The notes beneath the pieces were generated by a model. That model saw only the letters and a list, made by a program, of their open reading frames with translations, did not search any database and was not told the DNA's origin. Positions 25,967 to 30,144 of a stretch of DNA of 32,472 nucleotides are shown piece after piece. This DNA comes from Bacillota bacterium (GTDB taxonomy: Bacteria > Bacillota > JAAYKD01). Position 1 is the stretch's first letter; each line of letters starts with the position of its first letter. Location of the stretch: NCBI GenBank assembly GCA_012522585.1, contig JAAYKD010000107.1, positions 1 to 32,472 of the forward strand. The letters are read 5' to 3'. The position numbers and the translations under genes were made by a program.

Positions 25967-26230
25967 ATGGAAATTCTAAAAGTCTCAGCAAAATCCAATC
26001 CTAATGCTGTAGCAGGAGCTCTGGCCGCCACAATTCGTGAAAAAGGAGCTGCTGAAATGCAGGCCATCGGAGCAGGGGCTTTAAACCAAGCCGTCAAAGC
26101 CATTGCCATAGCTCGAGGTTTTGTAGCTCCTATTGGTTTGAACTTAGTCTGTATACCTGCTTTTACCGATATAGAAGTTGCAGGTGTGACTAAAACAGCA
26201 ATTAAACTAATCGTCTTAACATCTTTATAA
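25967..26230 (+). CDS. spoVS: Stage V sporulation protein S (SpoVS/Alba-like)
   Basis: MEILKVSAKSNPNAVAGALAATIREKGAAEMQAIGAGALNQAVKAIAIARGFVAP. Confidence 0.96.
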   Translation: MEILKVSAKSNPNAVAGALAATIREKGAAEMQAIGAGALNQAVKAIAIARGFVAPIGLNLVCIPAFTDIEVAGVTKTAIKLIVLTSL

Positions 26231-26256
26231 TAGTAAATAAAATTCGCAAATTTAAT

Positions 26257-26313
26257 AAGGGTCCACTTTCTTGGTCTAAGCCAATTGCTTGGAATGAGCC
26301 AAAGTGGACCCTT
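26257..26313. repeat. 13-bp inverted repeat AAGGGTCCACTTT ... AAAGTGGACCCTT with 31-nt loop
   Basis: Arms 26257-26269 and 26301-26313 are exact reverse complements. Confidence 0.85.
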
Positions 26314-26325
26314 GGGCTAGGCCAA
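26271..26325. promoter_or_regulatory. Three tandem TTGG-N5-GCCAA palindromic sites (candidate operator array)
   Basis: TTGGTCTAAGCCAA 26271-26284; TTGGAATGAGCCAA 26289-26302; TTGGGCTAGGCCAA 26312-26325. Confidence 0.5.
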
Positions 26326-26376
26326 TTTTACTTGAAGTCAGAAATAGACACAATGATTTTATGAAAATCAAAGGAA

Positions 26377-26406
26377 TTGCAGGGGCAAAAAGAGAATATT
26401 TAAGAT
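26377..26406 (+). promoter_or_regulatory. Possible SigA promoter for the GntR gene (TTGCAG-18-TAAGAT)
   Basis: TTGCAG 26377-26382, 18-bp spacer, TAAGAT 26401-26406. Confidence 0.4.
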
Positions 26407-26468
26407 GTAACGTGTAATTCACTCTAAGAAATTCATGCGTTTTAAAAAATTGGCTTAAGGAGGAAAAT

Positions 26469-27440
26469 GTGGACTTATCTAATATTTATTTGGACAAAAA
26501 AAACGGTGTGCCACTTTATCTTCAACTGTCCGAGCAATTGAAGAGCATGATTTTGAGCGGATCACTTACAACCGGTCAGCGTTTGGCCACCGAAAGAACC
26601 ATGTCTGAAAAGCTGAAGGTCAGCCGTAATACAATAAGTTTAGCTTATTGTGAATTGGAAAAAGAAGGTCTGGTCATCTCTCGGCAAGGCAGTGGCACTT
26701 ATGTTGCTGATTTAGAGCGCAGATTGCAACAGATTGACAGACGGCAATCCTTGATGAAGGCAATAGACGGGGTTATCAAAGAGGCAGCCGAGAACGGCTA
26801 CACTTTAGAGGAATTCAACAGTCTTTTTGCCGGACGGATCAGGGAGTGTCGGGGACATTTTAAAAAAGTTCACGTAGTCTTTGTGGAATGCAATCATGAG
26901 CAGGCAGATTACTTCGCCAAAGAAATTGAATTGGGTTCAGGTGTGACAGTTGAGGCTGTTCTCCTCGACGAAATCAAGGAAAAGAAAGAAGTTTTGCTGG
27001 CGGCTGATTTGGTCGTAACTACATTTTATCACCTTGAGGAAGTAAAGGATTTTATTCCTGAAAGAAGCAATGAAATTTTAGGAATTGCTCAAGATCCTCA
27101 GGTTGATACAATCGTAAAAATTGCCAGATTGTCCAAAAGTGAAAAAATCGGTCTCGTTTCGACCAGCGATATCTTTGCTACAGACGTCATTCGTTCCATT
27201 CAAAACTCAGGTATTCCTGGCCTCAGGTTTATCAGAAGCATTTCCAAAGATCCCGAAGAATTAAAAACACTCATAAATTTAGTTGAAGTTGTTGTTGTTT
27301 CCCCCGGAAGAAAAGAGGAAATTGAAGAATTAGCCGGTGATAGAGAAGTAGAAGTCATTGAATTTATCTATCGTCCCGATATGGGTTCGATAAATCTTTT
27401 GAAAAATGCAGTCTTACGCTTACGCGATAAAGATAACTAA
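26469..27440 (+). CDS. GntR-family regulator with C-terminal ligand-binding-like domain
   Basis: GVPLYLQLSEQLKSMILSGSLTTGQRLATERTMSEKLKVSRNTISLAYCELEKEGLVISRQGSGTYVA; GTG start after AAGGAGG. Confidence 0.9.
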   Translation: MDLSNIYLDKKNGVPLYLQLSEQLKSMILSGSLTTGQRLATERTMSEKLKVSRNTISLAYCELEKEGLVISRQGSGTYVADLERRLQQIDRRQSLMKAIDGVIKEAAENGYTLEEFNSLFAGRIRECRGHFKKVHVVFVECNHEQADYFAKEIELGSGVTVEAVLLDEIKEKKEVLLAADLVVTTFYHLEEVKDFIPERSNEILGIAQDPQVDTIVKIARLSKSEKIGLVSTSDIFATDVIRSIQNSGIPGLRFIRSISKDPEELKTLINLVEVVVVSPGRKEEIEELAGDREVEVIEFIYRPDMGSINLLKNAVLRLRDKDN

Positions 27441-27453
27441 AGGAGGAATTGCT

Positions 27454-27666
27454 ATGGAGAACAATCCAAAAACCAGGGTTGTCGTGGTCAATGAGAAATT
27501 CTGTAAGGGTTGCGGCATATGTATAGCCTTTTGCCCCAAGAAAGCTTTGACACCCCAAATCAACGGAAAACCCGTTTGGGACAATGATCTTTGCATTCGT
27601 TGTGGCTTATGTGAATTACGCTGCCCCGATTTTGCTATTTACTTAGTACAGGAGGGAGAAGAATAA
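27454..27666 (+). CDS. korD: 2-oxoacid:ferredoxin oxidoreductase delta subunit (2x[4Fe-4S])
   Basis: CKGCGICIAFCP and CIRCGLCELRCP; ATG 27454 after AGGAGG; followed by alpha/beta/gamma genes. Confidence 0.88.
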   Translation: MENNPKTRVVVVNEKFCKGCGICIAFCPKKALTPQINGKPVWDNDLCIRCGLCELRCPDFAIYLVQEGEE

Positions 27667-28784
27667 TGAAAAAACCAGTTTTAATGCAAGGTAATGAAGC
27701 ATGTGTACATGGTGCTCTGGCAGCAGGGATTGGCTTTTACGCCGGTTATCCAATAACTCCCTCAACTGAAATTGCTGAGCTCTTAGCTGAAGAAATGCCC
27801 AAAGTAGGCGGCTATTTCATTCAAATGGAAGATGAAATTTCCAGCATGGCAGCTACAATTGGTGCCAGTCTAGCCGGTAAAAAAGCTATGACCGCCACTT
27901 CCGGCCCCGGTTTTTCCTTAAAACAAGAAAACCTAGGCTTTGCAGTTATGGCAGAGGTACCCTGTGTAGTCGTCAACGTTCAGCGCAGTGGCCCCAGTAC
28001 AGGTCTGCCAACCTCACCGGCCCAAGGAGATGTCATGCAGGCTCGTTGGGGATCTCATGGTGATCATGCCACTATAGCCCTTTCTCCTTACTCTGTAAGA
28101 GAATCCTTTGATGTTACAGTCAAAGCTTTTAATTTAGCTGAAAAATATAGAACCCCTGTAATCATCCTCTTAGATGAAATCGTCGGTCATATGCGGGAAA
28201 GAATTGACATTCCAGAGCCCGGCACCTACGAAGTCTTAGAGAGACCCAAAACCGATTTATCTCCTCAAGAATATCAACCCTTTGATGCTCCGGTTGATGG
28301 CATTGTACCTTTGGCACCCTTTGGTACCGGCTATCGTTTCCACATCACAGGTTTAACCCACGATCGAACAGGTTTCCCCTCTACCAAACCAGCTGAAGTT
28401 GATTATAAGATCAGACGTCTCACTTCAAAAATTGAGATGAACACTGAAGATATTGTGGAATGGGAAACTTATAATTGTGACGATGCCGACACAATTATCG
28501 TAGCCTATGGCGGAACTGCTCGTTCAGCCCAAGCTACCATGGAATTGGCTCGAGAAAAAGGTTTAAAAGTTGGTCTTTTCAGACCCGTCACCATCTGGCC
28601 CTTCCCAGAAAAAGCCTTGATCGATATAGCTAAAGACAAAAGAGTTATCGTGGCTGAAATGAACTTAGGCCAGGTCGCTTTAGAAGTCGAAAGAATATTG
28701 AAACAGGATATTGAAAAAGTTAACAAAATAGACGGTGAACCCATAACACCACAAGAAATTCTTGATCAAATTGAGGGGGTATAG
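27666..28784 (+). CDS. korA: 2-oxoacid:ferredoxin oxidoreductase alpha subunit
   Basis: MQGNEACVHGALAAGIGFYAGYPITPSTEIAELLAEEMP, TATSGPGFSLKQENLGFAVMAEVPCVVVNVQRSGPSTGLPT. Confidence 0.92.
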   Translation: MKKPVLMQGNEACVHGALAAGIGFYAGYPITPSTEIAELLAEEMPKVGGYFIQMEDEISSMAATIGASLAGKKAMTATSGPGFSLKQENLGFAVMAEVPCVVVNVQRSGPSTGLPTSPAQGDVMQARWGSHGDHATIALSPYSVRESFDVTVKAFNLAEKYRTPVIILLDEIVGHMRERIDIPEPGTYEVLERPKTDLSPQEYQPFDAPVDGIVPLAPFGTGYRFHITGLTHDRTGFPSTKPAEVDYKIRRLTSKIEMNTEDIVEWETYNCDDADTIIVAYGGTARSAQATMELAREKGLKVGLFRPVTIWPFPEKALIDIAKDKRVIVAEMNLGQVALEVERILKQDIEKVNKIDGEPITPQEILDQIEGV

Positions 28785-28786
28785 AA

Positions 28787-29602
28787 ATGAGTAACGGAAG
28801 AGAATTGCTGCGCCTGAATAAAATGCCACATATTTGGTGTCCCGGCTGCGGAAACGGTATCATCACCTCTCAAGTTTTAAGAGCAATCCAAGAATTAGAG
28901 TGGGATCAAGATAAAACCGTAATCGTTTCCGGAATTGGCTGTTCATCAAGAGCACCCGGATATTTGGATTTTTCTACACTACACACAACTCACGGCAGAG
29001 CTTTAGCCTTTGCTACCGGTTTGAAATATGCCAATCCTGAGTTGAAAGTAATCGTCTTGACAGGTGATGGAGATAGCGCTGCTATCGGTGGAAACCATCT
29101 GATCCATGCCTGCCGACGCAATATTGACATAACCACCATCGTTTTCAACAACTCAATCTACGGTATGACCAGTGGACAATATTCTCCCTTAACACCGACC
29201 GGCAGTTTAGCCACAACAGCTCCTTACGGAAATATTGACAGAACCTTTGACTTAAGCCAATTGGCAGTGGCAGCCGGAGCTACTTATGTTGCTCGCACCA
29301 CTACCTACCATACCAATCAATTGCGTGATTTCATCAAAAAAGGTATGCAAAATAAAGGCTTCTCAGTCATCGAAGCTGTAACTCATTGTCCGACTTACTT
29401 CGGTCGTCGTAATCGTATGGGTGGTGCCGTTGAGATGCTCAACTGGCAAAAAGATCATGCCGTACCAATCAGAGCGGCTGAGCGCTTGAGTGAAGAAGAA
29501 TTAGCCGATAAATTCATCATCGGTGAGTTCCATAATAAACCTGAGCCTGAGTACTGTGAGCGTTATGCTCAATTGATTGCAAATACAAAGGGGCAAGAAT
29601 AA
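28787..29602 (+). CDS. korB: 2-oxoacid:ferredoxin oxidoreductase beta subunit (TPP-binding)
   Basis: PHIWCPGCGNGIITSQVLRAI, LTGDGDSAAIGGNHLIHACRRNIDITTIVFNNSIYGMTSGQYSPLTPTG. Confidence 0.93.
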   Translation: MSNGRELLRLNKMPHIWCPGCGNGIITSQVLRAIQELEWDQDKTVIVSGIGCSSRAPGYLDFSTLHTTHGRALAFATGLKYANPELKVIVLTGDGDSAAIGGNHLIHACRRNIDITTIVFNNSIYGMTSGQYSPLTPTGSLATTAPYGNIDRTFDLSQLAVAAGATYVARTTTYHTNQLRDFIKKGMQNKGFSVIEAVTHCPTYFGRRNRMGGAVEMLNWQKDHAVPIRAAERLSEEELADKFIIGEFHNKPEPEYCERYAQLIANTKGQE

Positions 29603-30144
29603 TGAAAAAACAATTAGAAGTCCGATTGAGTGGTGCAGGCGGCCAAGGTCTGATCTTAGCAGGTATTATTTTAGCTGAAGCTGCCTTATATGATGAGAAA
29701 AATGCTATCCAGAGTCAATCTTACGGTCCGGAAGCCAGAGGCGGTTCCAGCCGAGCCGAAGTTATTATTTCAGATAATGAAATCCATTATCCCAAAGTAA
29801 TAAGCCCTAATGTTTTAGTTTCCTTGACTCAAGATTCCTACAATAAATATAAAGGTGAATTAGCCGAAGATGCAATTCTGATCGTCGATGAGACAGTCGA
29901 GGTGGAAGCAGACATCAAACACACTGTCTACCAATTACCTTTACTGGAAATTGCCAGAGTTGAGTTGCGTCCGGTGGTAGCCAATATAGTTACCTTAGGT
30001 GCCTTCCAAAGAATAACCGGTTGCGTTTCCTATGAATCTTTAGAAACAGCTGTCTTAGACAGAGTACCTAAAGGAACAGAAGAACTGAATAAACAAGCCC
30101 TTGCAGCCGGCCACAAAGCGGCAGGAGATCTACTTGCCAGATAA
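29602..30144 (+). CDS. korC: 2-oxoacid:ferredoxin oxidoreductase gamma subunit
   Basis: EVRLSGAGGQGLILAGIILAEAA, QSQSYGPEARGGSSRAEVIIS. Confidence 0.93.
   Translation: MKKQLEVRLSGAGGQGLILAGIILAEAALYDEKNAIQSQSYGPEARGGSSRAEVIISDNEIHYPKVISPNVLVSLTQDSYNKYKGELAEDAILIVDETVEVEADIKHTVYQLPLLEIARVELRPVVANIVTLGAFQRITGCVSYESLETAVLDRVPKGTEELNKQALAAGHKAAGDLLAR

Follow-up and report, generated by a model that had tools for sequence, protein, structure and literature searches.

Autoregulation is common among members of the GntR family, and in AraR a GntR-type wHTH is joined to a two-lobed domain of the sugar-binding type. It has been described that GntR operators may carry additional half-sites located 7-12 nt from the centre of the site (PMC4494728). 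The operators of the FadR subfamily follow the consensus NyGTM-N0-1-KACNy and those of HutC the consensus NyGTMTAKACNy, and the YtrA operators are long palindromes in which conserved bases stand well away from the centre, most of them serving a single regulated operon (PMC4494728). The locus considered here lies in a window (the whole stretch of DNA that was analysed, 32,472 nucleotides) in which recA, rny, ymdB and spoVS precede a gntR gene, which is followed by korDABC and then by genes that read as methylmalonyl-CoA mutase (recA, rny and the mutase being named from the sequence). As judged from sequence comparison, sites located between spoVS and gntR very probably constitute a composite operator through which GntR would repress its own gntR-korDABC operon.

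The initial annotation of this region had described three dyads of the form TTGG-N5-GCCAA and a 13-bp inverted repeat that is not followed by a U-tract. All of these were recovered, with the starts of the dyads and both arms of the repeat matching exactly (Table 1), and a terminator scan found no U-tract after the repeat. The accompanying view that such recurrence is unlikely by chance is true of the cluster, because no more than one TTGG-N6-CCAA turned up in any of 20,000 order-1 resamples of the 238-bp intergenic region, whereas the lone motif is not rare. The window contains seven TTGG-N6-CCAA sites (no other spacing between 0 and 15 gives more than two), of which three are packed inside 55 bp, and its densest TTGG/CCAA cluster is the same 70 bp that hold the dyads. 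When folded as RNA, dyads 1 and 2 join the inverted repeat in a single long stem (-34.4 kcal/mol, z -4.1), and these two dyads are not fully independent since the TTGG of dyad 1 pairs with the CCAA of dyad 2.

Table 1. Positions of the sites and genes discussed, in window coordinates.
Feature	Position	Strand	Remarks
Candidate promoter TTAACA-16-TAAAAT	26216..26243	+	-35 inside the 3' end of spoVS; 10/12 in consensus scan
Left arm of 13-bp inverted repeat, AAGGGTCCACTTT	26257..26269	+	carries GGTCCA, the outer half-site in inverted form
Dyad 1, TTGGTCTAAGCCAA	26271..26284	.	possible accessory operator; 7.8 bits, window rank 17
Dyad 2, TTGGAATGAGCCAA	26289..26302	.	probable accessory operator; 12.0 bits, window rank 4
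Right arm of inverted repeat, AAAGTGGACCCTT	26301..26313	+	gives the main operator its outer half-site TGGACC
Main operator (putative), AGTGGACCCTTGGGCTAGGCCAAT	26303..26326	.	TGG-N5-TGG-N6-CCA at 26305, 26313, 26322; holds dyad 3 (26312-26325)
Leader block, AGAAATAGACA...AAAAAGAGAA	26339..26396	+	conserved with G001, in register with the operator
Shine-Dalgarno region, TTGGCTTAAGG	26450..26460	+	conserved with G001; not an operator by motif
gntR, GntR-family regulator	26469..27440	+	N-terminal wHTH and 193-aa sensor domain without Pfam family
korDABC, 2-oxoacid:ferredoxin oxidoreductase	27457..30144	+	presumed controlled operon

A genome-wide search, which had been suggested as a check, gave a divided answer: the motif alone is common in the 1.91-Mb genome (92 TTGG/CCAA sites with N6 versus 63 with N7), for which reason the signal resides in the cluster and not in the motif, whereas the full operator pattern is restricted to the window. 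Elsewhere in this genome, 22 of the 24 TTGG-N5-GCCAA sites that were checked fall within ORFs, and the intergenic sites L026 and L040 have unrelated genes as neighbours. In a pattern scan of the same genome TGGAYYNNTGGRYTRNNCCA had no zero-mismatch match other than the main operator, and matches with one or two mismatches occurred at the level of controls, with eight of nine checked lying inside ORFs. A wider regulon within this genome was therefore rejected, as the full operator pattern has no match outside the window; the notion that the dyad array is a repeat family was also discarded, since a DNA search with the intergenic region returned only short pieces elsewhere.

The operator assignment was addressed by phylogenetic footprinting with GntR orthologues of roughly 40-50% protein identity. 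Across the phylum, 84 of 399 genomes had such an orthologue, relatives of the window carried them as well, and 80 named orthologue contigs with their flanks were used, including Carboxydocella, Tumebacillus, Kyrpidia, Thermincola, Candidatus Fermentithermobacillaceae, Atribacterota and others. A palindromic motif was learned ab initio by EM from upstream stretches of 160 bp at 63 non-redundant orthologues, with the window and its relatives G001 (same family) and G003 (same order) left out of the training. The result was AATGGActAATgcATTagTCCATT with the nested 14-mer ATGGAyTArTCCAT, present in about two thirds of the 63 regions. The same two spacing classes emerged independently from simple counts made without EM, with TGG-N6-CCA in 26 and TGG-N14-CCA in 39 of the 80 upstream regions, versus 2 to 20 of 80 for other TGG/CCA spacings. 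The best orthologous sites reach 25-32 bits and the window site is weaker (14 bits); its nested layout, TGG-N5-TGG-N6-CCA, recurs in four orthologous loci (L122, L146, L162 and L174).

Within the window, the 24-bp motif ranks the main operator first among about 32,450 positions (14.2 bits), a site made up of dyad 3 and the right-hand arm of the inverted repeat, and just one of 300 column-permuted versions of the motif places its top window match in the same intergenic region. The nested 14-bp motif ranks dyad 3 second, ahead of dyad 2 and dyad 1 (Table 1), so that motif scores argue moderately for dyad 2 and weakly for dyad 1 as operators. The earlier proposal that the adjacent GntR has an operator array here thus survives as regards the operator, though not as regards three equal dyads, given that the core is a 24-bp operator with three half-sites. 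Orthologues have a conserved palindrome in front of the regulator gene, as expected of a GntR autoregulatory operator. The footprinting, the first rank in the window, the presence of the site in G001 without spoVS and the absence of a U-tract all speak for an operator, but the half-site at the RBS, which had been described as a matching one, does not: although TTGGCTTAAGG is indeed there, it has no match to the operator motif, its score led to its rejection as an operator, and its conservation with G001 is best read as that of a Shine-Dalgarno region.

Like the window, the two nearest relatives provide results that are free of training circularity. In both G001 and G003 the top match of the 24-bp motif at the locus lies upstream of gntR, at 13.8 bits in either case (at -157 and -220, respectively). 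In G001, gntR is directly preceded by ymdB, with spoVS absent there, and a comparable repeat and operator are present, which indicates that gntR, rather than spoVS, is the gene that the site accompanies. Of the half-sites, G001 retains the outer ones only, the inner TTGG of dyad 3 being absent there. The distance from operator to leader is the same in the window and G001 (GCCAAT-N13-AGAAATAGACA), and the conserved leader block is a candidate promoter or leader element.

What the sequences show directly is that the sites exist and are conserved, that they are nearly confined to the regions upstream of gntR, and that gntR is linked with kor. Around the orthologues, 832 kb exclusive of the gntR upstream regions contain four sites of at least 14.1 bits, and 108 kb of the genome to which the window belongs contain none. 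At a threshold above 11 bits, 71 sites lie within 300 bp upstream of gntR versus nine elsewhere in about 830 kb. Some circularity enters this count, given that motif training had used the 160 bp upstream of gntR. The orthologue loci preserve the order gntR-kor, and an operator site was found at 46 of 56 kor-linked orthologues versus 6 of 24 other loci; the motif scan detected no site at the other 10 kor-linked orthologues. Four loci from other Bacillota (L165, L173, L183 and L184) show the arrangement rny-ymdB-spoVS ... gntR-korDABC-mcm as well, and additional sequence separates their spoVS from gntR. Non-kor GntR homologues were observed at L130, L134, L139, L160, L169, L178 and L123, where they adjoin genes for glutamate mutase (mutE, mutL, B12-binding subunit), 2-hydroxyglutaryl-CoA dehydratase or Asp/Glu racemase. 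The operator motif is absent from these loci with the exception of L123, where it precedes gntR and an Asp/Glu racemase gene takes the place of kor, and therefore the other non-kor homologues may recognise a different site.

The inverted repeat could alternatively represent a transcript end or processing hairpin of spoVS, with the dyads being by-products of a long imperfect stem. The long RNA stem, as well as the start of the repeat 27 bp past the spoVS stop codon, are in keeping with this explanation, which the initial annotation had also entertained, yet a search for an intrinsic terminator (a GC-rich hairpin plus U-tract) found none, nor is there any terminator-like match between spoVS and gntR. 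Moreover, G001 carries a comparable repeat and operator in a ymdB-gntR arrangement without spoVS, and the letters in the window fit a motif derived from loci that mostly have other upstream genes, so that a role confined to the end of spoVS appears quite improbable. As a separate observation, in L055 and L056 a T-run comes after an operator-like palindrome upstream of gntR, where the preceding gene ends, and therefore terminator and operator seem to overlap in these loci; a dual role as terminator and operator is possible.

There is likewise only a slight probability that the hairpin acts at the RNA level within the 5' leader of gntR-kor, that is, as an attenuator or mRNA stabiliser, rather than as a DNA operator. 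The corresponding stretch also folds in G001 (z -5.4) and G003 (z -4.3), and a candidate promoter is located upstream of the repeat; however, RNA folding is the default for DNA palindromes, the hairpins of the window, G001 and G003 share operator half-sites and not stem or loop length, distant orthologues possess the DNA motif without a long hairpin, and a search for Rfam families gave none (the best match, CyaR, had an E of 1.4, far under gathering). It is very improbable that the sites serve another regulator which happens to control gntR-kor operons in many genomes, a suggestion that could draw on the misfit between the motif and the published FadR and HutC consensus sequences (PMC4494728). 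Against it, the site tracks gntR and not kor, as illustrated by L123 with its gntR and Asp/Glu racemase gene, and sites are nearly absent elsewhere around the orthologue loci. Furthermore, the frequent autoregulation of GntR members agrees with an operator of GntR itself.

If the sites are a GntR operator, a GntR dimer would bind the main operator through its outer half-sites TGGAC and GCCA, the extra inner half-site would create dyad 3, and dyad 2, and perhaps dyad 1, would act as accessory sites that strengthen GntR binding. We infer direct binding and repression, together with the promoter and the ligand: bound GntR would block transcription of gntR-korDABC, because a likely promoter at the spoVS/gntR boundary precedes the sites. 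The promoter call itself is weak, as there is one promoter-like site between spoVS and gntR and shuffled sequences give about as many. A position just after the -10 box is the usual place of a repressor site, and among 25 orthologues whose site is strong, 20 have a -10-like hexamer that begins no more than 30 bp before the operator; the main operator of the window is about 60 bp beyond the candidate promoter, a greater distance than most orthologues show. Relief of the block would come from a ligand of the C-terminal domain, with glutamate or 2-oxoglutarate as the best guess since non-kor homologues adjoin genes for glutamate mutase, 2-hydroxyglutaryl-CoA dehydratase and Asp/Glu racemase.

The GntR protein (323 aa) belongs to the GntR family according to its PF00392 wHTH (57.9 bits versus a cut-off of 27), while its C-terminal domain of 193 aa matches no Pfam family and could not be related by sequence to any known family. 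This domain was modelled apart, because a fold search with the full-length model gave wHTH matches only, and it is confidently predicted as alpha/beta (pLDDT 91), with a weak fold likeness (TM below 0.5) to two-lobed binding proteins, an NtrC-family regulator domain (2q5c) and glutamate racemases. Its coding stretch (26859-27437) specifies an invariant ECN.EQ and conserved T...H, SP.R and PD motifs, and it is possibly an unnamed ligand-binding domain. The learned motif, TGGAC...GTCCA, differs from the FadR operator consensus and also from that of HutC, and the C-terminal domain has no UTRA match in Pfam; the aminotransferase domain of MocR is absent from the 323 aa, and an alpha/beta domain of 193 aa stands in place of the short C-terminal domain of YtrA. 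For these reasons the protein is a GntR-family regulator outside the subfamilies tested. As a tentative proposal, to which we give somewhat less than an even chance, it may represent an undescribed GntR subfamily across Bacillota and Atribacterota with an unclassified sensor domain for glutamate or 2-oxoglutarate. Such a subfamily would regulate the oxidation of 2-oxoglutarate through kor or, in related members, the genes of glutamate mutase and 2-hydroxyglutaryl-CoA dehydratase, and it would use an operator of at least three half-sites about 8 bp apart that would be occupied stepwise by more than one dimer.

In the open literature we found nothing relevant on a GntR regulator of kor, nor any description of this GntR group as a regulator of 2-oxoglutarate or glutamate fermentation. 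The operator is of an ordinary kind, and its motif is one for which no description was found in open papers. It supplies a testable DNA motif and a target operon for an unnamed GntR orthologous group of anaerobic Bacillota and Atribacterota; together these point to a regulator of 2-oxoglutarate and glutamate fermentation and, if the operator assignment is true, to a self-controlled switch for an enzyme that degrades 2-oxo acids. The wHTH resembles those of AraR and YvoA/NagR (33-39% identity in structural matches), whereas no sequence kinship with a known family was detected for the sensor domain. With the palindromic operators of FadR, HutC and YtrA the locus shares a palindrome upstream of the regulator's own operon and an extra half-site (PMC4494728), although its motif, TGGAC-N10-GTCCA with the nested TGGAyTArTCCA, is different from those of FadR and HutC. 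YtrA regulators have a short C-terminus and an ABC transporter as target, in contrast to the 193-aa sensor domain and presumed metabolic enzyme target of the present GntR; their operators are nevertheless alike in being long palindromes whose conserved bases are distant from the centre and which mostly serve one operon (PMC4494728).
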